Assembly: GCA_028532905.1 (NCBI GenBank)
Contig: JAQQAM010000281.1
Span: forward strand, 1 to 34,727
Direction of reading: 5' to 3'
DNA length: 34,727 bases
Source: Spirochaetales bacterium
GTDB lineage: Bacteria > Spirochaetota > Spirochaetia > DSM-2461
Shown: piece after piece, positions 7,939 through 29,466 of the stretch
Layout: every line of letters begins with the position of its first letter
Numbering within the stretch: position 1 is the first letter of the stretch
Notes under the pieces: generated by a model
The model's database searches: none
The model's input: the letters and a program-made list of their open reading frames with translations, nothing else
What the model was told of the DNA's origin: nothing
Translations under genes and position numbers: made by a program

Positions 7939-7964
7939 TCTCTTTTCAAATGAAGGGGAGAAAT

Positions 7965-10754
7965 GTGAAAACCTATTGTATCGCCTGCGGTGTATTCAGA
8001 AAGGATCTTGAAGAGATTCTACCCGCACTACCTGAAACTCCCGAAGTGGAATATCTGGAAGGGGGACTCCACGCCGAGCCCGATCTTCTGAGAAAAGAAC
8101 TTCAGAGCGCCATAGATAACGTTCCTGCTGATTTCCAGCGGATTATCCTTTTATACGGTGTATGCGGCAAGGGTATTGTCGGCCTGCACGCCGCATCTCA
8201 GACCATTGTGGTTCCCAGAGTCCACGACTGCATCAGTCTCTTTCTGGGAGGAACCAGGGAGTACAGAAAACAGTTTACCCATAAACCGGGTACCTATTAT
8301 ATCTCGGCCGGATGGTACGAGGAGCAGGTGCAGACCAAAGGCAAAAGACTCCGGGACATGGAGAATCTTAAAAAACCCTCTCCCTATGCGGATACCCTGG
8401 ATGAAACCGTTCTGACACAGCGCTTCGGTGAGGAGAATTCCCGGGCTGTGAAGGACTTTTATGACGGCTGGAAAAAGAACTACTCCCGGGCTGTGTATAT
8501 CGATACAGGATGCATTGGGAAAGAAACCTATTCGGACTATGCGAAAAAACTGGCCGAAGACAACGGCTGGGAATATACAAGGCTGGAAGGCTCCCAGAGC
8601 CTTATATACCGCTGTTTTTCTGCTGACAGTAACAGTGAGCTTTCAGATGAGGAAATTCTGGTTGTCCCTCCCGGAAGGGAAATCACCTTTGATCCGGTGA
8701 GCGGCCTTGTGAACTTTGCCTCTCCTCTGACGGAGCAGAACAGCAATACCGAACGTCATATCCTCTTCGGCAGTGAGGCTGCACAGGACAATTCGGATTC
8801 CCGGAAGACAGCCGCCCTGGGACTCGGTATAGACGCCGGAGGAACCTATACAGATGCCGTTCTTTTTGATTTCCGGGAAGAAAAGATCCTCTCCCGGGCC
8901 AAGTCTCTGACAACCAAGTGGAAATACTCTGAAGGGATCATGGCGGCGGTCCGGCAGCTTCCCGAAGATCTTTTGAATAAAGTGGATCTGGTATCCCTTT
9001 CCACAACCCTGGTTACCAATGCCATCGTTGAATCCAACATGCACCCGGTGGGACTTTTTCTCATGCCCATGGCCAATATGATTCCCGATAACATCAGTCA
9101 CAATCCCCATTCCCTCATTAAGGGTAGAATGACCATTGAGGGCGCTGTTTCACAGGATATTGATCCGGAGGAGATAAGACAGGCCGCTGTTAAAATGGTC
9201 GCTCAGAACGGTGTAAAAGCCTTTGCTGTTTCAGGTTACGGGGCTTCGGTCAATCCCGAACTGGAGCTGAAAGTCAAAAAGATCCTGAGAGAGGAGACGG
9301 GGCTGGATGTGTGTTGCGGCCATGAGCTTTCAGGGACATTGAACTTCCATGTAAGGGCTCACACCGCAGTACTGAATGCCGGGGTCATCCCTATTATGGA
9401 AGATTTCCTGTCAGAAATGAAAAGAGCTCTGAAAGGGGTAAAGGTGGATGCTCCCCAGCTTGTTGTGAAAGGGGACGGTTCAATCATGACCGGAGCCTTC
9501 GCTTCAGAGTTTCCCGTTCAGACGGCTCTTTCCGGTCCGGCGGCCAGTATGACAGGAGCCCGTTTTCTCACAGGCCTGGATAACGCTCTGGTAATTGATG
9601 TGGGCGGAACCACATCGGACATCGGGTATCTGGAAAAGGGGGAAGTTGCCGTATGCGAGTCCGGGGCTTCCATCTCATCCTGGAGAACCCATGTGAAAGC
9701 GGTGGATATGCTCACAACTGGTCTGGGGGGAGACAGCGCCATTGTTTTTGACCGTCAGGTCTGGAGTATCGGACCGGGAAGAATCACCCCCTTCTGCTGG
9801 CTGAACGGCCGTTATGATTTGAAGCAGTCCCTGGAAGGGGCTCGCAACAGTGCAAAGGACAGTGAGTCTTCTGTTCCTCTGCAATGGATGTACAGCACCG
9901 GCAAAACTCCTGATTTCGAACTGAGCGCACAGGAGAAAAAAATCCTGGAAATACTGGAAGAAGGCCCCCTGCTGGTCTCAGATCTGAGCAGCAGAATCTG
10001 CCACGGGGTCTGGAAACTCCTGAAGCTGGACCGTCTTGAAAAGAATTACTGTATTCAGAGAGCCGGCCTGACTCCCACCGATCTTTTTCACCTCCAGGGG
10101 AGATTGTCCCTCTGGCCCGTAGAGGGTATACAGGAGTACTTTGACCTCCATCTGGAACTGCAGAAGGAGAGCGCCTACAGGGTTATGGACCGGCTTCTTG
10201 AAAAAATCAACCGAACCCTTGCCCGGTCTGCCCTGCAGAAAATCTTCCCCGAGACGTCGGAAAAAAGCACTCTCTTCAGCCCGATTCTCAACGGGGGCAA
10301 TGACTATCTGACTCTGACACCCTCCCTGAAGATCCCGGTTATCGGGCTGGGCGCACCCGCCTCTCTGTTTCTGGAGAATGCGGTAGAACTGCTGGGAGGA
10401 ACTGCCCTGATCCCTGAAAACGGAGATGTGGCCAATGCCCTGGGAGCCATTACCAGTAAAGTCCAGGTGAACTGCAGCGCTTCGGTTGTTCCCACAGTGG
10501 AAGGTCTGTACAGAATCACAGGTCTTGAAGGCTTTGAGGATCAGGAGAGTATGGAAGAAGCAGACAGCCTCTGCATGGAGGCTCTGGTGGCAAAAACAAG
10601 AGATACCGCCAGACGGGCCGGCAGCTCTGAGCAGTCTGTAGAAGTCCGCAGCCATGATAAAACAGCTGAATCCGCAGGAGGAGATCTTCTGTTTCTGGAG
10701 CGGATCTATACATCCTCTCTGAAAGGGTCACCCGATCTTGTTTTCAACCCCTGA
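7965..10754 (+). CDS. DUF1638-hydantoinase/oxoprolinase (ASKHA) fusion protein
   Basis: A 929-residue cytoplasmic protein made of two parts. Residues 1 to about 245 look like DUF1638, with cysteines in YCIACG (C5, C8), YGVCGKG (C67), VHDC (H87, C89) and DTGC (C183) that could bind a metal or cofactor. From about 285 onward it is a hydantoinase/oxoprolinase (HyuA) ATPase of the actin-like fold: GIDAGGTYTD (about 288-297) is the first phosphate motif, ALSGPAAS lies near 520, and DVGGTTSDIG (about 545-554) is the second phosphate motif. A stretch from about residue 645 (EKKILEILEEG...) resembles a winged-helix insertion. In other genomes DUF1638 proteins occur beside corrinoid methyltransferases; none is visible here. 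I chose GTG 7965 because GGGGAG precedes it by four bases, whereas ATG 7950 has no ribosome binding site. The reaction is unknown. Confidence 0.85.
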   Translation: MKTYCIACGVFRKDLEEILPALPETPEVEYLEGGLHAEPDLLRKELQSAIDNVPADFQRIILLYGVCGKGIVGLHAASQTIVVPRVHDCISLFLGGTREYRKQFTHKPGTYYISAGWYEEQVQTKGKRLRDMENLKKPSPYADTLDETVLTQRFGEENSRAVKDFYDGWKKNYSRAVYIDTGCIGKETYSDYAKKLAEDNGWEYTRLEGSQSLIYRCFSADSNSELSDEEILVVPPGREITFDPVSGLVNFASPLTEQNSNTERHILFGSEAAQDNSDSRKTAALGLGIDAGGTYTDAVLFDFREEKILSRAKSLTTKWKYSEGIMAAVRQLPEDLLNKVDLVSLSTTLVTNAIVESNMHPVGLFLMPMANMIPDNISHNPHSLIKGRMTIEGAVSQDIDPEEIRQAAVKMVAQNGVKAFAVSGYGASVNPELELKVKKILREETGLDVCCGHELSGTLNFHVRAHTAVLNAGVIPIMEDFLSEMKRALKGVKVDAPQLVVKGDGSIMTGAFASEFPVQTALSGPAASMTGARFLTGLDNALVIDVGGTTSDIGYLEKGEVAVCESGASISSWRTHVKAVDMLTTGLGGDSAIVFDRQVWSIGPGRITPFCWLNGRYDLKQSLEGARNSAKDSESSVPLQWMYSTGKTPDFELSAQEKKILEILEEGPLLVSDLSSRICHGVWKLLKLDRLEKNYCIQRAGLTPTDLFHLQGRLSLWPVEGIQEYFDLHLELQKESAYRVMDRLLEKINRTLARSALQKIFPETSEKSTLFSPILNGGNDYLTLTPSLKIPVIGLGAPASLFLENAVELLGGTALIPENGDVANALGAITSKVQVNCSASVVPTVEGLYRITGLEGFEDQESMEEADSLCMEALVAKTRDTARRAGSSEQSVEVRSHDKTAESAGGDLLFLERIYTSSLKGSPDLVFNP

Positions 10755-18214: not shown

Positions 18215-19354
18215 TCAGCGACTGAACTGTTTGTTGCTTTTAACCCTGTACATTTCATTATCAGCATCCCTGACAAGATCCTGGTAGTTTTTGTGTTTTT
18301 CCGGGTCAAAAACAGAGCAGCCGCAGCTGCAGTAGAGTCCGTATTCTTTGATCCCTTTGGCATTAAAATCATTCAATTGATTTTCAAGGCGCTGGATGAC
18401 CAGTTTGATGACCTCTGGTTGTGTCGTTTCCAGGGAAACAAGAAACTCATCTCCTGCAAAACGGGAGGTATTGTCTTCATGTTTCACACACTGATTCAGT
18501 ATCCTGGCAAAATGGATCAGAGCTCTGTCTCCCTCACTGTGGCCGAAGCGGTCATTGATCTGCTTAAACCGGTCCATGTCGATCATAATGACTGAAAAGC
18601 CGATGCCCGTTTTCAGTGCCTGAGACGTTCGGTAATAGAGCCACTCCTCCATCTGTTTTCTGTTATTCAGTCCTGTGAGGGTATCATTGCTGGTTGATCC
18701 GAGTTCCAGGAATATAAAAACAGCAACAATGGCCATAGCTACAGAGTTCCAGACAATCATGGGGCTTGTGGTTACAATCTGGATCACGGCACCGGTTAAG
18801 GGAATCAGAACAAAGGCGAATGTGGCAATTCGGATATTCCGTTCCATTGTCACTTTGCCCCGTATCACCGTCAGAACAGGGGAGTAGATAATCATAAAAA
18901 TAAAGACAGTGTAGAGAATGGAACCCGTCGTATTTCTGATATAGCAGTTGGATGCATCAAAACTGAAAATCCACTGTGTTTTCAGATTGATCAGGAGAAG
19001 TACAAGGGAAATAATCAGGTAATAACTGTAGTAGCCTTTTCTTTTCAGTCTTTCCACTGAGCCGAAAATTTTAAAATCAATGTAATTCAGCCAGATCACG
19101 GGAACCCAAACATTGGAAAAGAAAAAAAGAAAATTGATCAACTGGTTTAGAAAACAGGCCCGGGGGCCGGGAATCCCTTCATACCGCCAGCTGAGAATCT
19201 CCAGAATCAGTACGGCAATCTCTGCGGCTATCAGTTTCATAAACCAGCGGTTGGAGATGGAAAAGTGCTGTTTGTTGTAAATCATATTAAAGAGAAGCAG
19301 AAACAGCAGAGAGATAAAGAAAAAACTGGTCTGGTAATCAAACTGGGGATACAT
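18215..19354 (-). CDS. Membrane diguanylate cyclase (GGDEF domain)
   Basis: Predicted to make cyclic di-GMP from GTP at the inner membrane. With the ATG at 19354 it is 379 residues; a TTG at 19372 would add six, and neither has a good ribosome binding site. The first 220 residues hold about six or seven hydrophobic segments forming a membrane sensor without a known large extracellular domain. The GGDEF domain follows: MIDMDRFKQINDRFGHSEGD, then the active-site loop SRFAGDEF, with AGDEF (300-304) in place of GGDEF, a variant found in active enzymes. The inhibitory I-site reads KHED (291-294) in place of RxxD, so product feedback may be weakened. It is the synthetic counterpart of the HD-GYP enzyme at 736-2571. 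Confidence 0.92.
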   Translation of the reverse strand: MYPQFDYQTSFFFISLLFLLLFNMIYNKQHFSISNRWFMKLIAAEIAVLILEILSWRYEGIPGPRACFLNQLINFLFFFSNVWVPVIWLNYIDFKIFGSVERLKRKGYYSYYLIISLVLLLINLKTQWIFSFDASNCYIRNTTGSILYTVFIFMIIYSPVLTVIRGKVTMERNIRIATFAFVLIPLTGAVIQIVTTSPMIVWNSVAMAIVAVFIFLELGSTSNDTLTGLNNRKQMEEWLYYRTSQALKTGIGFSVIMIDMDRFKQINDRFGHSEGDRALIHFARILNQCVKHEDNTSRFAGDEFLVSLETTQPEVIKLVIQRLENQLNDFNAKGIKEYGLYCSCGCSVFDPEKHKNYQDLVRDADNEMYRVKSNKQFSR

Positions 19355-19451
19355 AGCACCATTATAAATCAATTTCTATAACTGAACAGGCCTTTTTTTC
19401 TGATATTTATGGATTCCCTGATTCAGGAGAATCGGAAAAGGTCAGACAGAT

Positions 19452-19480
19452 TTGACAGTATGCAGTGCAAAATATATTAT
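19452..19480 (+). promoter_or_regulatory. Promoter of the ECF-SAM hydrolase operon
   Basis: A perfect -35 TTGACA (19452-19457), a 17-base spacer and -10 TATTAT (19475-19480) make this the strongest promoter match in the window. Transcription would start near 19487, giving a leader of about 60 bases. The leader holds a small TTTCC/GGGAAA hairpin but nothing I recognise as a riboswitch. Confidence 0.75.
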
Positions 19481-19545: not shown

Positions 19546-20103
19546 ATGAAAGATTATTTTAAAGTGACCACAAGAACTATTGTGGCTACCGGTCTTGGTG
19601 CAGCCCTTTTTATGCTGCTGTTCATGTATGTCAAAGTTCCTTCACCCATCCCCGAGACCAGCCTTCAGACAGCTTACGGTCTGGGCGCCTTTTTTGCAGT
19701 CCTTTTCGGCCCCATTGCCGGCGGATTGATTGCATTCATCGGCCATGCTCTGTCTGACGCTCTGCAGTACGGCTCTCCCTGGTGGAGCTGGGTTATTGCC
19801 AGCGGTGTCTGCGGTTTCGCCTATGGACTGGCCTACAAAAAGACCGGTGTGGAAGAGGGTGAGTTCAAAGGAAAATCCATCGTTGTCTTTAATATTATTC
19901 AGATTGTCGGTAATATCATCGCCTGGGTTGTCATAGCCCCTGTACTGGATATCGTCATCTACAAGGAACCTGTTAATCTTGTATTCACACAGGGAATTGT
20001 TGCAGCGGCCATGAACTCCGTAACGGTAGCCATCATAGGTACTCTTCTGCTTGTTGCCTACAATGCAACCAGAACCCAGAAGGGCAGTCTGGATAAAGAG
20101 TAA
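19546..20103 (+). CDS. ECF transporter S component, UPF0397 family
   Basis: The substrate-binding membrane subunit of an energy-coupling factor (ECF) importer. It is 185 residues with about five or six hydrophobic segments and matches the UPF0397 family along its whole length: VATGLGAALFM at the start (the helix that contacts EcfT), GPIAGGLIAFIGHALSDALQ with YGSPWWSWV, and the ending VAYNATRTQKGSLDKE. The ligand of UPF0397 proteins is not established to my knowledge. AAGGAG precedes the ATG by eight bases, and a near-consensus promoter lies upstream. It opens a six-gene operon with its own ATPase and T subunit and two SAM hydrolases. From this context I infer that the ligand may relate to SAM, methionine or adenosine. 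Confidence 0.9.
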   Translation: MKDYFKVTTRTIVATGLGAALFMLLFMYVKVPSPIPETSLQTAYGLGAFFAVLFGPIAGGLIAFIGHALSDALQYGSPWWSWVIASGVCGFAYGLAYKKTGVEEGEFKGKSIVVFNIIQIVGNIIAWVVIAPVLDIVIYKEPVNLVFTQGIVAAAMNSVTVAIIGTLLLVAYNATRTQKGSLDKE

Positions 20104-20155
20104 AACCTGAAGACTCACAAAAAACGCAAAAGATCTGTATGGGAAGAGGTTCACT

Positions 20156-21865
20156 GTGGAAAATGAAAACATTATTGAGTTCAGGGATTTCAGTTTTCAG
20201 TATTTTACACAGGCAAAACCTACCCTGCATAATATAGATCTGAGCATCAGAAAAGGGGAGAAGATTCTGATAGTCGGTCCCAGCGGCAGCGGTAAAAGCA
20301 CCCTGGGGCATTGTCTGAACGGTCTGATCCCTTTCTCCTATAATGGGGAAATCACAGGCAGCCTGAAAATCCGGGACAAAGAAACCAGAGACCTGGATAT
20401 CTTTCAGCTGTCTAAAATCCTGGGAACCGTCCTCCAGGACCCCGACGGACAGTTTGTAGGGCTCACTGTTTTTGAAGATATTGCTTTTGCCCTGGAGAAT
20501 GATAATATTTCCCTCCCTGAAATGAAACAGAGGGTCCGGAAAGCCGCTGAAATGGTGGATATGGACAGTTTCCATTCTTCCTCCCCCTATGAGCTTTCTG
20601 GCGGACAGAAACAGAGAACCTCCCTGGCAGGGGTTCTGGTGGATGAAGTGGATATCCTCCTTTTTGACGAGCCTCTGGCCAATCTGGACCCGGCAACAGG
20701 CAAAAGGGCCATTGAAATAATCGATGACATTCACAGAGACACCGACAAAACCATAATTATCATTGAACACCGGCTGGAAGATGTCCTTCACAGGGATATT
20801 GACCGGGTTATTGTTATGAATGACGGCCGTATTCTGGCCGATCTGGATGCCGATTCCTTAATGGCCTCTTCGGTTCTGAAAGAGAACGGCATACGGGAAC
20901 CCCTTTATGTTACAGCCCTGAAATATGCGGGAGTTGACGTTTCCAAAGACCTGCAGGCCGGGCACATCGACTCCCTTGTTATGGAAGATGTGAAAAAAGC
21001 CGTATTCGACTGGAATAATTCAGTTGTCTCACCACAGCCGCAAGAAGAAAAAGAGACTCTCCTGCACCTTAAAAATATCTGTTTTTCCTATGACGGGGAG
21101 AAGGATATTATCAGGGATGTCAGTTTCAAACTGGGTTATGGTGAACTCATGGCCATTGTGGGACGCAACGGTGCCGGTAAATCGACTCTGTCCCGGCTCA
21201 TTTCCGGTTTTGAAAAGGAGTCTTCGGGTATCATCTCCTACAGGGGGGAGGATATAAGCGGTCTCACCATCAAAGAGAGAGCTGAAAAAATCGGTGTGGT
21301 TATGCAGAATCCCAACCAGATGATTTCCAAGCCCATGATTTTTGATGAGGTGGCCCTGGGGCTGCGGCTCAGGAATGTGGATGAAGAGGAAATTAAACAG
21401 AGGGTGGAGAAGGTTCTGAAGGTTTGCGGACTGGCCCCTTTCAGAAAGTGGCCTATTGCCGCCCTTAGTTTCGGACAGAAGAAAAGGGTGACCATAGCCT
21501 CCATACTGGCTCTGAACCCGGAAGTCATTATTCTGGATGAACCCACAGCGGGGCAGGATTTCAAACACTATACCCAGATTATGGAGTTTGTGGATGAGAT
21601 CAATAAACTGGGTGTCGCCATTATCCTGATTACCCACGATATGCATCTGATGCTGGAATATGCCGAGAGGGCCGTTGTTATATCAGGAGGACAGAAAATT
21701 GCCGATGCCCGTCCCAGCGATGTCCTTACAAACCACAGTATCATTGAACAGGCAAATCTGAAGGAAACCTCCCTGTATCAGCTCAGTCTGAGTGCAGGGA
21801 TAGAAGACGGTACCGCCTTTGTTCAGAACTTTATTGATTATGAAAAGAAGGTGAGAGTCCATTGA
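20156..21865 (+). CDS. ECF transporter double ATP-binding subunit (EcfA-EcfA')
   Basis: The energy-supplying subunit of the ECF importer, with both nucleotide-binding domains fused in one 569-residue chain. First domain: Walker A GPSGSGKST (41-49), signature LSGGQKQR (147-154), Walker B ILLFDEP. Second domain: Walker A GRNGAGKST (336-344), signature LSFGQKKR (437-444), Walker B VIILDEP. Both appear catalytically complete. The chain starts at GTG 20156, with GAGG about eight bases upstream. Its TGA overlaps the TTG start of the next gene, so the T component is translationally coupled. Such fused ATPases are typical of dedicated (group I) ECF transporters, in which all subunits are encoded together. 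Confidence 0.95.
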   Translation: MENENIIEFRDFSFQYFTQAKPTLHNIDLSIRKGEKILIVGPSGSGKSTLGHCLNGLIPFSYNGEITGSLKIRDKETRDLDIFQLSKILGTVLQDPDGQFVGLTVFEDIAFALENDNISLPEMKQRVRKAAEMVDMDSFHSSSPYELSGGQKQRTSLAGVLVDEVDILLFDEPLANLDPATGKRAIEIIDDIHRDTDKTIIIIEHRLEDVLHRDIDRVIVMNDGRILADLDADSLMASSVLKENGIREPLYVTALKYAGVDVSKDLQAGHIDSLVMEDVKKAVFDWNNSVVSPQPQEEKETLLHLKNICFSYDGEKDIIRDVSFKLGYGELMAIVGRNGAGKSTLSRLISGFEKESSGIISYRGEDISGLTIKERAEKIGVVMQNPNQMISKPMIFDEVALGLRLRNVDEEEIKQRVEKVLKVCGLAPFRKWPIAALSFGQKKRVTIASILALNPEVIILDEPTAGQDFKHYTQIMEFVDEINKLGVAIILITHDMHLMLEYAERAVVISGGQKIADARPSDVLTNHSIIEQANLKETSLYQLSLSAGIEDGTAFVQNFIDYEKKVRVH

Positions 21866-22695
21866 ACAGCAAATTATTCTCATACAATTACATAGATACC
21901 CCTGTTCACAGACTGTCGGGGCTGACAAAATTGATCGCCTTTCTTTTCCTCACCTTTGCTGTAATGTTCAGTTATGATATCCGGGTTATTCTGCTGGTAA
22001 TGGTGTTCTCCCTGTTTGTTCTGCGCCTGTCTAAAATCAAATACAGACAGATCCGGCTGATGGTGATCTATGTGGCTGTATTCATTATAACCAACGCCAT
22101 TATCACTTTTTTCTTTTCCCCGGAAGAAGGGGTTAAGATTTACGGAACCCGGCATGTCCTGTTTAAAATTGCAGGCCCCTATGTGGTAACTCAGGAACAG
22201 CTCTTTTATCAGCTGACCAAGCTGTTTAAATATTCATCTGTCATTCCCCTGGGAATTACCTTCCTTCTCACCACAAATCCCAGTGAATTTGCTTCGGCAC
22301 TCAACGGTGTAGGGGTTCATTACAAAGCAGCCTATGCTGTGTCTCTGACCCTCCGGTATTTTCCGGATATCCAGAGGGAGTACAGAAATATCAGTCTCTC
22401 CCAGCAGGCGAGAGGCCTGGATATGTCCAAAAAAGCCGGATTCGCCACCAGAGTGAAGAATGCCCTTCTGATCATCATCCCTCTGGTATTCTCTACTCTC
22501 GACAGAATAGAACTGATCAGCAATGCCATGGATCTGAGAGGATTCGGCAAGCACAACAGACGTAGCTGGTTCAGCAAGAAGCCATTTACAACATCTGATT
22601 TTATTGCGCTTTTCATCTCCGTATTGATTTTTACAGGGACCATTCTGGTATCCGTATTCATCAATCACGGACGTTTTTATAATCCCTTTATCTGA
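21862..22695 (+). CDS. ECF transporter T component (EcfT)
   Basis: The transmembrane coupling subunit of the ECF importer (CbiQ/EcfT family), 277 residues. It has about five hydrophobic segments and the two cytoplasmic coupling regions: LSQQARGLDMSKKAG near residue 180 (the Ala-Arg-Gly motif) and SNAMDLRGFG near 220 (family motif of the Ala-x-Arg-Gly type, here Leu-Arg-Gly). These dock onto the ATPase. It starts at TTG 21862, overlapping the preceding stop as TTGA, with AAGGTGAG as ribosome binding site. Confidence 0.93.
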   Translation: MNSKLFSYNYIDTPVHRLSGLTKLIAFLFLTFAVMFSYDIRVILLVMVFSLFVLRLSKIKYRQIRLMVIYVAVFIITNAIITFFFSPEEGVKIYGTRHVLFKIAGPYVVTQEQLFYQLTKLFKYSSVIPLGITFLLTTNPSEFASALNGVGVHYKAAYAVSLTLRYFPDIQREYRNISLSQQARGLDMSKKAGFATRVKNALLIIIPLVFSTLDRIELISNAMDLRGFGKHNRRSWFSKKPFTTSDFIALFISVLIFTGTILVSVFINHGRFYNPFI

Positions 22696-22718
22696 TTATC
22701 CAACGAAAGGAGGCTTTT

Positions 22719-23564
22719 ATGGAAAAACCATTAATGGTCTTTCAGACCGATTTTACCTATAAGGAGGGAGCGGTCTGCTCCATGTATGGTGTGGTCAAGT
22801 CTGTTGACCGCTCTCTTGAAATCATTACAGGGACCCATGATATTCCTCAGTTTGATACCTGGAGCGCCTCGTACAGACTCTATCAGTCCATGAAGTTCTG
22901 GCCCGAGGGTACTGTCTTTGTTTCGGTTGTAGATCCGGGTGTGGGAACCGCCCGCAAGGCTTCGGTGGCTCTTACTGAAAACGGTTACTACATCGTTACC
23001 CCGGATAACGGATCTCTCACCCATGTTGATCGGGAATTCGGCATTAAGGAGATTCGGGAGATTGACGAAGGTATAAACCGCCTGAAGGGAAAGGACACCG
23101 AAGAGGTCAGCATTTTTCACGGGCGTGACCTTTTCTCCTACTGTGCCGCCAGGTTTGCTGCGGGCATTATCAGTTTTGAAGAGGTGGGGCCAGCCTACCC
23201 GAGTGAGGATATTGTTCGTTTTCCCATTCTGGAACCAACTGTTGAAGACGGAAAAATATCAGGCATATTTGAGATAAACGATCCCAATTTTGGAAATATC
23301 TGGACCAATATTCCTCTTTCAGTATTTAGAGAGGCGGGGTTTGATTTCGGAGATTATCTGCAACTGCGCATCTGTCACAAGGGAGAAGAGACGTTTTCCA
23401 GAAAGCTCCTGTTTCACAAATCCTTCGGATTTGAAGAGAAGGGGGAGCCCATGATCTACAACAATGAGCTTATGAAAATCTCACTTGCTGTCTCCCAGGG
23501 GAGTTTTATGGAGCAGTACGGCATCGGCTACGGGTCTGACTGGACTGTCGAATTCTCCTGTTGA
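22719..23564 (+). CDS. SAM hydrolase (adenosine-forming), DUF62 family, first copy
   Basis: Predicted SAM hydroxide adenosyltransferase, which uses water to cleave S-adenosylmethionine to adenosine and methionine. It is 281 residues. The triad of the family is present: D72 and R79 in VDPGVGTAR and H134 in FHGRD. TPDNGSL (94-100) is another family motif. The N-terminal motif is altered: DFTYKEG replaces the usual DFGxxDG, with Glu for Asp, so its activity or substrate may differ from the second copy. A strong AAAGGAGG ribosome binding site precedes the ATG, 23 bases after ecfT. The family is related to chlorinase and fluorinase, but plain hydrolysis is the usual activity. Confidence 0.9.
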   Translation: MEKPLMVFQTDFTYKEGAVCSMYGVVKSVDRSLEIITGTHDIPQFDTWSASYRLYQSMKFWPEGTVFVSVVDPGVGTARKASVALTENGYYIVTPDNGSLTHVDREFGIKEIREIDEGINRLKGKDTEEVSIFHGRDLFSYCAARFAAGIISFEEVGPAYPSEDIVRFPILEPTVEDGKISGIFEINDPNFGNIWTNIPLSVFREAGFDFGDYLQLRICHKGEETFSRKLLFHKSFGFEEKGEPMIYNNELMKISLAVSQGSFMEQYGIGYGSDWTVEFSC

Positions 23565-23578
23565 AACTGATTCTTCCG

Positions 23579-23603
23579 AGGATCTCCTTCAGAAGGAAAT
23601 CCT
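23579..23603 (+). other. Hairpin between the two SAM hydrolase genes
   Basis: AGGAT-C-TCCTT, loop CAG, AAGGA-A-ATCCT forms two five-base stems with one mismatch. No T-run follows, so it is not a terminator. It could protect upstream mRNA or tune expression of the second copy, whose ribosome binding site lies about 20 bases further on. Confidence 0.4.
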
Positions 23604-23630
23604 GATAAATGAAAAGAAAAGAGGTGGAAA

Positions 23631-24473
23631 ATGAATAAACTGATTGTATTTCAAAGCGACTTCGGACTGGTGGATGGTGCCGTATCAGCCATGCACGGTG
23701 TGGCCAATGTTGTGGATGACACTCTTAAAATATTTGACCTGACCCACGATATTCCCCAGTATAGCATCTGGGATGCCTCCTATCGGCTGTATCAGACAAC
23801 AGAGTACTGGCCCGAAGGGACGGTGTTTGTTTCCGTCGTAGACCCGGGTGTGGGATCTTCCCGGCTGAGTGTTGTGGCCCGGACTGTGAATAATCACTAT
23901 ATTGTGACTCCCGATAACGGAACCCTGACCCATCTGAAAAAGTATGTCGGCCTGAAAGAGGTCCGGGAAATTGATGAATCAAAACACAGACGGGAAGATA
24001 CGGAATATTCCTATACCTTTCATGGGCGGGATGTCTATGCCAACACCGGTGCCAAACTGGCTTCGGAAACCATCAGCTTTGAGCAGGTGGGCCGGCAGGT
24101 GCCTCTGGAGGATGTGCAGGAACTGGAAGTGGGAGAGGTCGTCAGAACTGAGGAAACCGTTAAAGGGACAATCGATATTCTGGACGTCCGCTTCGGTAGC
24201 CTCTGGACCAATATTCCCCGGGATGCCTTTGTGGAAACGGGATTTAAACACGGTGATTCAGTTGAAGTGATGATCCGGAACGGCAACAAAATGGCTTACA
24301 ACAACAGGATTGTTTACGGCCGTTCTTTCGCTGATGTCTATCCCAGTGAACAGGTTATCTATGTCAACTCGGTCTACAATATGGCTATTGCCATCAACCA
24401 GGGAAATTTTGCCCGTGCCTACAATATCGGTACCGGACGTCACTGGGAAGTGGAGTTCAGAAAAATCAAATAA
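23631..24473 (+). CDS. SAM hydrolase (adenosine-forming), DUF62 family, second copy
   Basis: A 280-residue paralogue of the preceding gene and probably the more canonical one. It keeps DFGLVDG at 10-16, D71 and R78 in VDPGVGSSR, TPDNGTL, and H131 in FHGRD. The two copies share runs such as WPEGTVFVSVVDPGVG and SYRLYQ, which indicates an old tandem duplication followed by clear divergence toward the C-terminus. GAGGTGG precedes the ATG. It ends the ECF operon; no terminator is seen before the convergent phosphatase gene 25 bases away. Confidence 0.92.
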   Translation: MNKLIVFQSDFGLVDGAVSAMHGVANVVDDTLKIFDLTHDIPQYSIWDASYRLYQTTEYWPEGTVFVSVVDPGVGSSRLSVVARTVNNHYIVTPDNGTLTHLKKYVGLKEVREIDESKHRREDTEYSYTFHGRDVYANTGAKLASETISFEQVGRQVPLEDVQELEVGEVVRTEETVKGTIDILDVRFGSLWTNIPRDAFVETGFKHGDSVEVMIRNGNKMAYNNRIVYGRSFADVYPSEQVIYVNSVYNMAIAINQGNFARAYNIGTGRHWEVEFRKIK

Positions 24474-24498: not shown

Positions 24499-25245
24499 TC
24501 AGGAAGGAATAAGATATCTGCGGTGGAGTTCTTCAACTTCACGGCTGTCTATGTCCAGGAAGTCCCGGATATAGGCATCCATGCTGCCGTAGCGTTCCTT
24601 TATTCCCGAATAGAATGAGTTCAGATACTCTTCTTTCACCGTGATGAATCCCAGCATTTTGTCCCTGATTTCTGACAGATCCAGATCGGGGACAGACCGT
24701 TTCAGAACCGATTCATCAGGCATGAATTTGGTACTCAGAAAATCTATAAGATCAGGATCTATGGTCAGATACTCCTGAGCAATATCTTCCGGTGAAAACT
24801 GGAACAGATGCATAAGGATGACACCGGCAATACCGGTTCTGTCCTTTCCCGCTGTACAGTGAAACAGAAACCCGGGAGATTTTTGGTTCAGAATCTCTCT
24901 GATAAGGGTGCTGTACTCCCGTGATTCGCTGAGCATATCCCTGTACAGACTGTTCATAAAAACAGATGCATTTTCCAGAGATGCTTCAAAATCTCCGTCA
25001 CTCATACCGGCAGCCGGCAGAACATTAATGTGGACCGTCCGGGCCCGGTTCACCTTCTCCTGACCGTCTTTTCTTATTTCCAGATTGCTTCTCAAATCAT
25101 AGATATAGGCGATATTGTGATCATCCAGCTTTTTCAGAATATCCCCGCCGGCAGGGTGAGGGGCGCTGCTTCTGTAAATGGTATTTCTCTTCAGCTTCAA
25201 ACCGCGGCTGTTTGTTTTCAAGCTTAATTCTCTGAAATTCAGCAT
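24499..25245 (-). CDS. Protein-tyrosine/dual-specificity phosphatase-like protein
   Basis: A 248-residue cytoplasmic phosphatase of the Y_phosphatase3 / MptpB-like type. The P-loop is HCTAGKDRTG, with catalytic C130 and the lysine and aspartate that mark this subgroup, which has activity on phosphotyrosine, phosphoserine or phosphoinositides in known members. The N-terminal RNTIYRSSAP and IYDLRSNLE stretches are also typical. ATG 25245 has AGAGG seven bases upstream; ATG 25251 is only three bases from it and is less likely. The natural substrate is unknown. Confidence 0.88.
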   Translation of the reverse strand: MLNFRELSLKTNSRGLKLKRNTIYRSSAPHPAGGDILKKLDDHNIAYIYDLRSNLEIRKDGQEKVNRARTVHINVLPAAGMSDGDFEASLENASVFMNSLYRDMLSESREYSTLIREILNQKSPGFLFHCTAGKDRTGIAGVILMHLFQFSPEDIAQEYLTIDPDLIDFLSTKFMPDESVLKRSVPDLDLSEIRDKMLGFITVKEEYLNSFYSGIKERYGSMDAYIRDFLDIDSREVEELHRRYLIPS

Positions 25246-25366
25246 ACTCATACCTCTATTTTATCTCTTTCCCCTTGTTTCTGAAAGCACCGTCCGAAAC
25301 AGACTGGGGTACAGCGGCAGGCTCATCAGCAGGAGAAGCCTCCGGGACAGCGGGTAAATAAATCGC

Positions 25367-25415: not shown

Positions 25416-26375
25416 ATGGAATTGAAAGAAGGCGACTGGCAAAGGGCTGCAGATCTTATCTCCCGGATTAAGGCTGAAACTGAAAAAGGATATCTGGGCA
25501 TGCCTCAGGCCTGTGAAACAGCTGTACTGGCTCTTGTAAGCGGTCTTCATCTTCTGATAGAGGATGTGTCGGGTATAGGAAAAACCACTCTGATCCGCTG
25601 TCTGTCCATAGCTTCCGGACTGGATCTGGGGCGTATTCAGTTTACTCCCGATCTGCTGCCCGGAGATATTACGGGCATGATGATCTGGGAGCCGGGTACC
25701 CGGTCCTTTCTCTACAGAGAAGGGCCCCTGCATCATCAGTTTATTCTGGCAGATGAGCTGAACCGGGCTCCCGCCAGAACACAGTCCGCCCTGCTGGAAG
25801 CCATGCAGGAGGAGACTGTAACGGTAGACGGTAAGGTGCGCTCCCTGCCGGAACCCTTCTTCGTTGCAGCCACCCAGAATCCGGCCTGGTATGCAGGTAC
25901 CTACAACCTGCCCGAGTCCCAGCTTGACCGCTTCGGCCTGTCCCTGTCTCCCGGTTTTCCGGACAGGGACACAGAGGTCAGAATCCTTTCGGAATTCAGA
26001 GACAGAAAAGCGGTGGATCAGGTGACAGCGGTTTGCAGTGCTGATGATATCAGCAGGCTGCGCCGGATGACAGAAGGGGTATTTGTGGAAAAGAATGTGC
26101 TGGATTACACAGCAGCCCTTGCGGGCGCTACCCGGAACAGCTCGCTGTTTCAGGCCGGTCTCAGTATCCGGGGGACCCAGCATCTGCTGAAGGCGGCACA
26201 GGCAAGAGCCCTGAGCCGGGGCAGGGGATTTGTGATACCCGAGGATATGGGTACCATGGCCGGGGCCGTCATGGCTCACCGGCTCCTTCTGACTCCCGAA
26301 CAGCGGAGCCGGGGGCTCAGTCTGACAGAAGCCATTCAGAATATTGTGCAGAGTGTTCCGGTACCGGTAAAATGA
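25416..26375 (+). CDS. MoxR-family AAA+ ATPase
   Basis: A 319-residue cytoplasmic AAA+ ATPase of the MoxR family, thought to act as a chaperone that assembles or activates protein complexes. Walker A is VSGIGKTT (51-58), Walker B is FILADELNRAPARTQ with D113 and E114, followed by LLEAMQEETVTVDG, and sensor 1 is in VAATQNP. MoxR proteins are usually encoded with DUF58 and transglutaminase proteins, as here: the next two genes overlap this one in turn, so the three are one translational unit. AAAAAGGAG precedes the ATG. Confidence 0.94.
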   Translation: MELKEGDWQRAADLISRIKAETEKGYLGMPQACETAVLALVSGLHLLIEDVSGIGKTTLIRCLSIASGLDLGRIQFTPDLLPGDITGMMIWEPGTRSFLYREGPLHHQFILADELNRAPARTQSALLEAMQEETVTVDGKVRSLPEPFFVAATQNPAWYAGTYNLPESQLDRFGLSLSPGFPDRDTEVRILSEFRDRKAVDQVTAVCSADDISRLRRMTEGVFVEKNVLDYTAALAGATRNSSLFQAGLSIRGTQHLLKAAQARALSRGRGFVIPEDMGTMAGAVMAHRLLLTPEQRSRGLSLTEAIQNIVQSVPVPVK

Positions 26376-27553
26376 ATCTTCCCTTCCGATTTCACAAGGA
26401 GACCCTCTTTCTTTTCCTGGCGGGGTCTGTTCTTTTCTTCTTAAGTTCCCGCTATTTCGGCGGCGTGTATATCCGTCTGTCCCGTTTCTGGTTTGTATTT
26501 TTTGCTGCTGATCTGCTGATGCTGCTGATCAACCAGCTCACCATCCGCTACTCCCTCGATTTCAGCAGGGATCATCTGAGTAAAGGGGATACGGTCCGCT
26601 ATACCATCAGTATGGAGAGCTCTTTTTTTCTCCCGGTTCCCCTGATCCGGATGGAACTGGCGCAACTGCACAGCAGAACCGAAGAGGGGGACCGGGAAAT
26701 CCGGCTGTCCCTGAAACCGGGGGAACGATGGGTCTGCAGCCGGGATGTTCATGTCACCCTGCGGGGGGTCTATACCATGGGTCTGTCCCGTCTGACCTTA
26801 AGGAGTGTCAGCGGTCTGCTCTCCCTTGATCTGCCCATCCATTCCAGAAGTTTTTATGTTTATCCCCGGGTTGTAGACATTCCCGCAGTTTTGAAAAAAC
26901 ATCCCTCTCCGGGAGGTAAGAATGCCGGTCTGGAGGGGCAGAAGGGAGATGAGCATAATTTTCTGGGTCTCCGGGAGTACCGGGAAGGGGAGGGTCTGAA
27001 GCATATCAGCTGGTCCCGATTTATGCAGACAGGCCGTCCCTGTATCAAGACCTATTCATCCATGGGAGGATCGGATATTCATATATTTCTGGACAGAAGA
27101 GCCTCGGGCCGTTCTCCATTGTGTGATGATACCGCTCTGGAAGTCTTTCTCTGTATTGTCCGTTCCGGTCTGGCAACTGGGCAGAAAATGACTCTTCACG
27201 GATACCCCGGCTGGGAGGGTATGTCTGTTGAAACGGAAGCTGAGTTTCACCGCCTGTTTCAGAGTACTCTCCTTTTTGATTTTGATGCTCCCGATCTTGA
27301 AGAATTGAGAACCCTTTCGACCCTGGAGGCGGTATATGCTGTATCATCCATGCCCGACCTGGCCCTGCTGGATGAAAAAAGCCGCTTTTCCGGTCTGGGA
27401 CATCTTATCTGTGTGAGCCTCTCCTATTCCCCTTCGGAAAGAGAGCGCTTCACATCCCTCCTGCTTCAGCGAAGACAGGAGGGATCTGTTATTTCTGAGA
27501 TTGATTCTGATCTCTCCATGGAAGAGGAACTGCAATGCCAGCTATACTCCTGA
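26372..27553 (+). CDS. DUF58-domain membrane protein
   Basis: A 393-residue protein with two hydrophobic segments near the N-terminus (about 10-28 and 35-55) and a cytoplasmic DUF58 domain. The DUF58 signature is FLGLREYREGEGLKHISW followed by SRFMQTGRPCIKTYSS. DUF58 proteins often show a divergent von Willebrand-A-like fold and act with MoxR ATPases. The start codon overlaps the moxR stop (ATGA), and the end overlaps the next gene by 19 bases. The biochemical role is not established. Confidence 0.92.
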   Translation: MNLPFRFHKETLFLFLAGSVLFFLSSRYFGGVYIRLSRFWFVFFAADLLMLLINQLTIRYSLDFSRDHLSKGDTVRYTISMESSFFLPVPLIRMELAQLHSRTEEGDREIRLSLKPGERWVCSRDVHVTLRGVYTMGLSRLTLRSVSGLLSLDLPIHSRSFYVYPRVVDIPAVLKKHPSPGGKNAGLEGQKGDEHNFLGLREYREGEGLKHISWSRFMQTGRPCIKTYSSMGGSDIHIFLDRRASGRSPLCDDTALEVFLCIVRSGLATGQKMTLHGYPGWEGMSVETEAEFHRLFQSTLLFDFDAPDLEELRTLSTLEAVYAVSSMPDLALLDEKSRFSGLGHLICVSLSYSPSERERFTSLLLQRRQEGSVISEIDSDLSMEEELQCQLYS

Positions 27554-29466
27554 TTCCATTGCTGGTCTACTATTCTCTTCATTTCTATCTGGCGTCCACG
27601 GCTCCCCTCTGGTTCCCCCTTCTGATTGTACTCCCCCTCCTTCTGAGAATCCTGGAGCTGAAAACTGTACCCTCTCAAAGGGTACATTCCCTGATGAAAA
27701 CCCTGAGGATCACTCTTTTTCTGCTTTTGATTATAGGATTTCTCCTGTTTATCCTGCTTCTGCCCGAAGCCCTATATCAGGCCTGGCTCCTCCTTCTGGA
27801 TGCGGGCAGAGCCGGGGGGATGATCTCTTTTGCTTTTGCCTATGCAGGGGGTCTGGTCAGCTCCGTCGGATGTGCCGCACTGATGAGCTGGACCAACAGA
27901 AAACAGGCTCTGGTCAATCTGCTTCTCCTGTGCAGTCTGGTTGTACTCATACTGTATCCCTCCGCACCGTTTTTTGTACTTTTTCTGATTCTCATTCTCA
28001 TTAAGCTGATTCTGATACAGAGGGATGAGCCGGGGAAGGTCTCTTTTCTTTCCATGGGCATTCTGCTGCTGCCCGCATTGTCAGCCGCCTTTCTGTTTCC
28101 CCTTTTCAATACAGAAGCCAGGGGCAGTCCTTTTGTGGACCGGTTCTCCTCAGGGCTTCAGCAGATAGTGGTACAGTACTTACCGCAGCTTCCCCTTGTT
28201 TTTGATATTCCCGGTTATGGATACGCTTATGATCAGGTGAGGAAAACAGGAGACAGACCGGTTCTGAGTTCCAATGTCATTTTCAGCATTGAAGGAGAGC
28301 CTGGAGCCGTGTACTATCTCCGGTCTGAGGTCTTCTATCTCTATTCCGAAGGGTACTGGGTCTCTGCCCAGCCGGGAACAGGAGAACCCCTATCCTCTGT
28401 TCCAACGGATGCAGGTTTAAAAAACTTTGCTCTGACTCTGGAAAGCGATCTCTATACAAGGATACCCCATAACAGCTGGTCCGCCTATTACAGTATGAAT
28501 GGAGAAAGCTATAAAACGGATGCCCTGGGCAGCTTTTATCCCCCCCGGGGCCTGCCGCTGAGCAGAGGGGACCGGTTGATCCTGTATGATGCTCCGGGAG
28601 GATCCCCTGTTCCTGACGAGGAGCTTCTGAACCGGCAGCTTACAGTAGCCTCCCGTATACCACCGGATTTGAAAAGAGAACTCACGGATCTGGCAGAATC
28701 ATTGAGAGGTGTGGATGAGAAACAGTCTCTGGCAAACATTTCCTCCTATTTGAAAGAGAACTGCCGCTATTCTCTGGATACGGAGAGCTCTGATCAGATG
28801 GTTATTGATTTTCTGTTTAAAACCCGTACCGGGTACTGTGTACACTTTTCCACAGCAGCAGCTCTTCTGGCCAGAACTCTGGGGCTGCCTGTCAGGATAG
28901 CGGAAGGATTCCTGTATCAGATTCCAGACCCCCGGGAGGATGAGCTGTACATCACACAGGAGTCCTACGGCATTACAGGATATTCGGCTCATCAGTGGCC
29001 GGAGGTCTTTCATGAAGATAGAGGCTGGATTCCCTGGGAGGTGACACCTCCCTTTGAAGATCTGGGAAACTCTATGATTCCGGAAAGCAGCATCAGTGAT
29101 GAGTACACCAGGGTGCAGCTGGACCGCATGGGAATCCTCATCAGCGAAGAAGGGATGCCACAAAGGTCTCACGGGGATCGCCGTATTCTTGTTTTTATCA
29201 CAGGAACAGGGCTTGCAGCAGTGTTTCTGTTATTTCTGATCAGGAAACAGGAATCCCGGGTGCAGCGGATTCTGAGACGCAAGGTCAGGAAGGCCGCGCG
29301 CAAACAGGGAATCCCCTCTCCGGAGCACTGCGGCTGGATCAGATGGTTTGAATACCAGAAGGGAAGCCCGGAGGGCTTGTCACTGCTTCTGAGACAGACC
29401 TACAGCCGGGAGAAGCTGGACAGGCAGGAAAAGAAAGCACTCCTGAAGGCTCTCAGGAGGCTCTGA
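27535..29466 (+). CDS. TgpA-like membrane transglutaminase-domain protein
   Basis: A 643-residue inner-membrane protein. The first 200 residues hold about seven hydrophobic segments, then comes a large extracytoplasmic region with a transglutaminase-like cysteine-protease fold, and a final membrane segment (about 543-564) before a basic cytoplasmic tail. The catalytic cysteine is C435 in RTGYCVHFSTAAALLA, and the histidine is H486 in SAHQWPEVF. The third position, normally Asp in a DPTP motif, is Glu here (E502 in WEVTPP), so the triad is Cys-His-Glu. It is the third gene of the moxR-DUF58 operon, overlapping the preceding gene; GAAGAGGA upstream is the ribosome binding site. The substrate is unknown. 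Confidence 0.9.
   Translation: MPAILLIPLLVYYSLHFYLASTAPLWFPLLIVLPLLLRILELKTVPSQRVHSLMKTLRITLFLLLIIGFLLFILLLPEALYQAWLLLLDAGRAGGMISFAFAYAGGLVSSVGCAALMSWTNRKQALVNLLLLCSLVVLILYPSAPFFVLFLILILIKLILIQRDEPGKVSFLSMGILLLPALSAAFLFPLFNTEARGSPFVDRFSSGLQQIVVQYLPQLPLVFDIPGYGYAYDQVRKTGDRPVLSSNVIFSIEGEPGAVYYLRSEVFYLYSEGYWVSAQPGTGEPLSSVPTDAGLKNFALTLESDLYTRIPHNSWSAYYSMNGESYKTDALGSFYPPRGLPLSRGDRLILYDAPGGSPVPDEELLNRQLTVASRIPPDLKRELTDLAESLRGVDEKQSLANISSYLKENCRYSLDTESSDQMVIDFLFKTRTGYCVHFSTAAALLARTLGLPVRIAEGFLYQIPDPREDELYITQESYGITGYSAHQWPEVFHEDRGWIPWEVTPPFEDLGNSMIPESSISDEYTRVQLDRMGILISEEGMPQRSHGDRRILVFITGTGLAAVFLLFLIRKQESRVQRILRRKVRKAARKQGIPSPEHCGWIRWFEYQKGSPEGLSLLLRQTYSREKLDRQEKKALLKALRRL

Follow-up and report, generated by a model that had tools for sequence, protein, structure and literature searches.

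What does an importer of the ECF type carry when two DUF62 enzymes, which act on SAM (PMC10491745), are encoded in the same operon? This question is raised by five genes located on the forward strand at positions 19546-24473 of the window, by which we mean the whole stretch of 34,727 nucleotides from a Spirochaetales bacterium that was analysed here. Our preferred answer, to which we assign a probability of roughly 0.6, is that the operon encodes an ECF importer of the dedicated type (group I) that takes up SAM and is coupled to its own hydrolases.

The operon and its products

The features of the operon are the following:

19452..19480, + strand: predicted sigma-70-type promoter, TTGACA-17-TATTAT, 11/12 consensus match
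19546..20103, + strand: S component (UPF0397, PF07155, NF010182), 185 aa, assigned by profile matches and an AlphaFold2 model
20156..21865, + strand: fused EcfA-A' ATPase, 569 aa, with two ABC_tran stretches and a DUF3744 linker (PF12558)
21862..22695, + strand: EcfT of the CbiQ family (PF02361), 277 aa, with a TTG start and a 4 bp overlap with EcfA
22719..23564, + strand: D1, DUF62 SAM hydroxide adenosyltransferase, 281 aa (PF01887 147 bits, PF20257 59 bits)
23631..24473, + strand: D2, DUF62 SAM hydroxide adenosyltransferase, 280 aa (PF01887 164 bits, PF20257 77 bits)

An earlier, sequence-only reading had described these genes as a co-directional unit behind a near-consensus promoter, and the coordinates, the domains, the promoter and gaps of at most 66 bp bear this out: S and EcfA are separated by 52 bp, EcfA and EcfT overlap, and gaps of 23 bp and 66 bp precede D1 and D2. 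The predicted promoter is the top scorer of the region and its -35 element (TTTGACA) is identical in five congeners; in four congeners it is unchanged although the leader around it has diverged. The operon is bounded upstream by a divergent GGDEF gene (18215-19372) and downstream by a convergent phosphatase gene (24499-25251). The location of the EcfA/A' ATPases and EcfT in the same operon as the S component corresponds to the group I (dedicated) ECF layout. As the host genome encodes its own MetK and a MetH-type domain, the two points covered by our check of its methionine pathway, the role of the importer would be supplementary in this organism.

The S component scored 168.7 bits against PF07155 (cut-off 26.7) and 234 bits against NF010182 (cut-off 99), and its AlphaFold2 model (pLDDT 93.7) adopts an S-component fold. 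Structural alignment of the model with VIA-align gave a Z of 16.8 for ThiT (rmsd 2.9 over 166 residues, 13 % identity) and of 14.7 and 14.4 for FolT and RibU, respectively; the predicted fold is thus held in common with all three at a sequence identity of 12-16 %, and its likeness to ThiT says nothing about the ligand. We know of no measured ligand for a UPF0397 S component. In the library NF010182 is called "ECF-type riboflavin transporter substrate-binding protein", which is a label and not a test, and a sequence comparison with the solved RibU (3p5n) yielded a match with an E-value of only 0.33, which gives no clear relation to a proven RibU. The invariant residues D71, W79, W82, W127, D135, E141 and Q149 of the S component are candidates only.

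D1 and D2 are the sole DUF62 genes of the host genome. Both contain the SAM_HAT_N and SAM_HAT_C domains (PF01887 and PF20257) as well as the Asp-Arg-His triad (D71/R78/H131 in D2 numbering), of which Asp and Arg are conserved in 146/146 and His in 141/146 sequences of our DUF62 alignment. Both domains and the triad are shared with PH0463, SaDUF62 and StDUF62. Since this triad marks the hydrolases of the family and is missing in the halogenases (PMC10491745), we expect hydrolase activity from both enzymes, either with different specificities or within a joint assembly. The nearest named relatives mark the host genome as that of a spirochaete: D2 is 87-88 % identical to its counterparts in Spirochaeta sp. 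UBA5339 and Spirochaetaceae bacterium 4572_59. When 146 DUF62 sequences were placed in a FastTree phylogeny, D1 and D2 fell into separate clades, each spanning spirochaetes and Firmicutes, and judged from this tree they are ancient paralogues. All 38 loci with an enzyme of the core D1 clade also have a partner from the D2 clade; the converse is not true. Fifteen positions distinguish the two clades and are nearly fixed within each, including T77/S76 beside the catalytic Arg, E16/D15, N193/S190 and E250/S247 (D1/D2 numbering).

In contrast to the known DUF62 enzymes, the window encodes a pair of paralogues, which are also about 25 residues longer than PH0463 and remain far below the cut-offs of the (R)-SAM hydrolase equivalogs: D1 and D2 reached 109 and 133 bits against NF058624 and 90 and 108 bits against NF053629, for which cut-offs of 350 and 470 are given in this order. 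DUF62 active sites sit at trimer interfaces, and one enzyme of the family is selective for (R,S)-SAM, the hydrolysis of which has been termed wasteful (PMC12120602). The physiological role of these hydrolases has been called unclear in the literature (PMC10491745, PMC12120602).

Linkage of UPF0397 and DUF62 across genomes

Linkage of the two families in other genomes had been set beforehand as the check on the sequence-only reading. Within the bacterial family of the host, DUF62 is present in 12 of 26 genomes, always in two or three copies, and ECF genes adjoin it in all 11 further loci (the window's own left out). The gene orders among these loci are S-A-T-D1-D2, D-D-S-A-T and D-D-D-S-A, with S components down to 36 % identity, and one more spirochaete genome of the class has the order D2-A-T-D1-S. 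To look beyond this group, 84,980 named genomes were scanned with the DUF62 alignment and the best 80 relatives were examined. In 62 of these, distributed over Clostridia, Erysipelotrichia, Streptococcus and Bacillus, ECF genes are located within the same few kilobases (the S gene in 59, the A and T genes in 3 more); of the remaining loci, 8 are truncated at a contig end and 10 show a clear lack of linkage. Together with D2-S-A-T, at least five gene orders occur, and therefore the link has been kept or re-made through rearrangement.

Since DUF62 was the starting point for the scan of named genomes, we also looked for both families in an independently drawn set of about 249 Bacillota, with two centres left out of the counts. 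UPF0397 exceeded the cut-off in 8 genomes, 4 of which also contain DUF62, and in all four the two families lie within about 5 kb of each other; G225, which is one of them, had also appeared among the best named relatives. Linkage across the Bacillota rules out an accident of the host's own genome or family, and we consider it confirmed that the association of UPF0397 and DUF62 is more than chance and not local.

The association is not obligatory in either direction. Four UPF0397 S-A-T cassettes were found in genomes without any DUF62 (G490, G294, G377, G414). In the Bacillota draw DUF62 is absent from about half of the genomes with UPF0397. Whatever is transported must therefore be of use even when it is not hydrolysed, as holds for SAM but equally for methionine and other relatives. 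Conversely, of three DUF62 proteins sampled from genomes without UPF0397, two belong to other branches (L133 and L135, 27-34 % identity to D1/D2) and one is closer (L134, 49 % to D2), and some D2-type genes occur without an ECF cassette.

The neighbouring genes of the related loci point in several directions. Read by eye from the sequence, metQ-like genes are located near nine loci and metI-like genes near seven. A gene of the nucleoside phosphorylase superfamily is the immediate upstream neighbour of ecfA in L117 and L123, and in L093 a kinase gene separates the two; such a neighbour fits adenosine as a product. In L038 a YhfX-like protein, a phosphopentomutase-like metalloenzyme, an EIIC-GAT permease and two transketolase-like genes lead into the DUF62 operon, the phosphopentomutase and transketolase names being assigned by eye. 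A GNAT or GNAT-GntR-UTRA protein is encoded between D2 and A in Lachnospiraceae, and a GNAT protein between D1 and D2 in clostridia.

Methionine-type control and annotated relatives

Direct scans of 41 related loci against all Rfam families form the basis of the riboswitch evidence; a search for SAM riboswitches in the genomes of 50 relatives was set aside, as its contigs could not all be matched to the loci. In six Bacillota loci (L080, L120, L102, L116, L089, L132) a T-box leader is located immediately upstream of a unit that starts with DUF62, and in each of them the specifier is AUG (methionine), e.g., in the context GAAC-AAUGGCC, according to an alignment read by eye and not computed. L132 comes from the independent Bacillota draw, and L089 is one of the D2-type genes without an ECF cassette. 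A SAM riboswitch directly precedes the S gene in L095 and L071; both loci also carry a Met T-box further upstream, in L095 ahead of a metQ-like gene. In L058 the gene following D2 is metK with a SAM riboswitch of its own.

A palindrome resembling the MET-box was found 54-86 bp upstream of DUF62 in L093, L096 and L118; of 400 shuffles each, 0, 0 and 4, respectively, scored as well. The other streptococci have no significant MET-box: about 8-11 % of the shuffles reached the 3-mismatch site of L114, L119 and L121, and the search found none in L083, L117 and L123. Control of all streptococcal loci by a MET-box was therefore dropped as an assumption and is limited to the first three. That one kind of operon is combined with three different regulators of the methionine type points to a supply of methionine or SAM. 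In the window itself no regulatory RNA matched an Rfam family and no methionine-responsive element was recognised; the spirochaete operon may be controlled by some unrecognised regulator.

The S family has already been annotated in a similar context. In Streptococcus suis a UPF0397-family S component is named "MtsA of methionine-regulated ECF transporter" (PMC9423846), and the corresponding MtsC has been annotated in S. merionis (PMC5066943). The gene before MtsA in the same expression cluster of S. suis (SSUSC84_0348 system) is named "DNA-directed RNA polymerase subunit delta" (PMC9423846). This gene is probably a misnamed DUF62, because the DUF62 homologue in PDB entry 7ccg bears the same odd product name; in the S. 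merionis locus L096, DUF62 is followed by S. The SEED-type MtsABC annotation and the window share the S family, the duplicated ATPase and the T component. The spirochaete operon differs by its two DUF62 genes, its order S-A-T-D1-D2 and the lack of any recognised methionine-type leader. The sequence-only reading had called the module possibly undescribed. This does not hold for the transporter itself, which is not wholly new given the MtsA annotation; the part that seems new is the dedicated pair of SAM hydrolases. No paper joining DUF62 with UPF0397 or an ECF transporter was found in the literature searched, outside of which lie comparative-genomics papers of 2004 and 2009, and within this scope the conserved pairing and the role suggested here for both orphan families seem to be undescribed.

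What does the importer carry?

The sequence-only reading had proposed SAM or a relative, adenosine or methionine as the solute, with cleavage after uptake. The Met T-boxes and SAM riboswitches that govern these operons in Firmicutes narrow this range in favour of SAM salvage, although the ligand itself is reached by reasoning: SAM is the only compound that joins a methionine-type signal, an enzyme converting SAM to methionine and an importer, and from this we infer both SAM as the ligand and the direction of metabolism. Extracellular SAM would be bound by the S component and its import powered by EcfT and the fused EcfA-A' ATPase, after which the cytoplasmic DUF62 enzymes would cleave it to methionine plus adenosine. 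In this way, SAM shed by other cells could become a source of methionine and of purine or ribose. During methionine shortage the cleavage of internal SAM would be futile, while that of imported SAM would yield methionine and adenosine. Cassettes without DUF62 still fit because imported SAM is usable as such. Against SAM stand the D2-type genes without an ECF cassette and the window's lack of a recognised methionine-responsive element.

An aged pool of extracellular SAM contains both sulfonium epimers, and D1 and D2 probably divide the labour, e.g., between these epimers or as subunits of one hetero-oligomer. The more specific proposal that this is the first ECF-type SAM importer, with UPF0397/MtsA binding SAM and D1 and D2 as stereo-complementary enzymes hydrolysing the (S,S) and (R,S) epimers, we consider unlikely in this full form. 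A functional parallel without family relation is the QrtT-QueK-QueL system for preQ1/queuosine salvage in Clostridioides difficile, in which an operon controlled by a riboswitch for the end product encodes an ECF S component and an intracellular hydrolase that releases the usable portion of the imported compound (PMC11477304); S component, ligand and hydrolase differ from those of the window operon.

The best surviving alternative is that the importer carries methionine, a precursor or a by-product (methylthioadenosine, methylthioribose, S-methylmethionine), while DUF62 belongs to the methionine regulon in its own right and recycles the cell's own (R,S)-SAM or an excess of SAM. T-box and SAM riboswitch control argues only for methionine supply and would suit this explanation as well, as would the Met T-box on the ECF-free L089, the cassettes without DUF62 and the (R,S)-SAM-selective enzyme (PMC12120602). 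However, shared regulation would not require the two families to stay physically paired across at least five gene orders, and internal cleavage would be wasteful in methionine starvation, a word that has also been used for (R,S)-SAM hydrolysis (PMC12120602). MetNIQ-like genes are already present near several loci, and the scores of D1 and D2 (109 and 133 bits) fall well short of the (R)-SAM hydrolase cut-off of 350. We therefore regard this alternative as rather unlikely.

A nucleoside-type ligand, i.e., an adenosine-like or adenosyl-sulfonium compound other than SAM that serves as substrate of DUF62, would agree with the phosphorylase-superfamily gene beside ecfA in streptococcal loci and with the phosphopentomutase-like and transketolase-like genes of L038, but it leaves the methionine-type control unexplained, the known substrate of DUF62 is SAM (PMC10491745), and the assumption appears improbable. 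Import of riboflavin, as the NCBIfam and Pfam names imply, with the DUF62 genes as unrelated passengers, is very improbable: the S component does exceed the cut-off of the riboflavin-named NF010182, yet neither the window nor any of the 41 loci contains an FMN riboswitch in the same scans that detected Met T-boxes and SAM riboswitches, the match to RibU is poor, and the conserved pairing would remain unexplained. Finally, signalling, in which uptake of a solute triggers SAM hydrolysis and lowers SAM, was the second proposal of the sequence-only reading and can claim only the co-directional operon; the domain search found no sensor domain there, induction by methionine shortage in the relatives favours supply over disposal, a gene induced by uncharged tRNA-Met would squander scarce SAM, and hardly any likelihood is left to it.

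If the importer does take up SAM for cleavage, SAM released by the community would be a methionine source and the DUF62 enzymes would gain a physiological role. Many gut Firmicutes, streptococci and spirochaetes would then use extracellular SAM as a nutrient, and two orphan families, UPF0397 and DUF62, would account for each other. The gene neighbourhood thereby narrows vague names such as "riboflavin transporter" or "methionine-regulated" to one testable substrate.

Further genes of the window and a MetH match

Outside the ECF operon, the window encodes the following genes, with the DUF58-like and transglutaminase-like names in the second entry assigned by eye:
window 7950-10754, (+), 934-aa protein with DUF1638 joined to a hydantoinase/oxoprolinase part
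window 25416-29466, (+), consecutive genes for a MoxR-type AAA ATPase, a DUF58-like protein and a transglutaminase-like membrane protein

Elsewhere in the same genome (G000:C292:10136-10756) as well as in four congeners, the match to the MetH B12-activation domain spans an in-frame stop (5/5 genomes), which may be only an over-extension beyond the gene end.

PF07155 and DUF62 proteins in other settings

Three further loci carry members of the S-component or DUF62 families:
G000:C186:13226-13699 (L041), second PF07155 protein of the window's genome, 118 bits
L134:5836-6831, (-), DUF62 protein with 49 % identity to D2, the second DUF62 protein of the operon
L109:10001-12668, three tandem DUF62 genes, Coriobacteriaceae

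The second PF07155 protein adjoins a different ATPase (about 25 % identical), and no DUF62 gene was found near it. The L134 protein has an N-terminal stretch resembling a signal peptide and may therefore be a SAM hydrolase that is exported; no UPF0397 protein above the cut-off is encoded in its genome. The Coriobacteriaceae trio, one D2-type gene and two on the side of its paralog D1, is followed by an O-acetylhomoserine-sulfhydrylase-like gene, and no ECF genes are present at this locus.

The DUF62 homologue PDB 7ccg was deposited under the name "DNA-directed RNA polymerase subunit delta", and S. suis SSUSC84_0347, which adjoins the S component MtsA, is called the same (PMC9423846). This is probably a spreading misannotation.

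Genes within or beside related operons

One rearranged DUF62-ECF operon is directly preceded by other genes:
L038:115-6041, YhfX-like racemase, phosphopentomutase-like metalloenzyme, EIIC-GAT permease and two transketolase-like genes

At L066, L105 and L107, where the S component is divergent, an M20-family peptidase gene separates EcfT and DUF62. In Lachnospiraceae and clostridia (L067, L072, L085, L092, L104, L051, L055), a GNAT or GNAT-GntR-UTRA fusion protein is encoded inside the operon and perhaps acts as its regulator.
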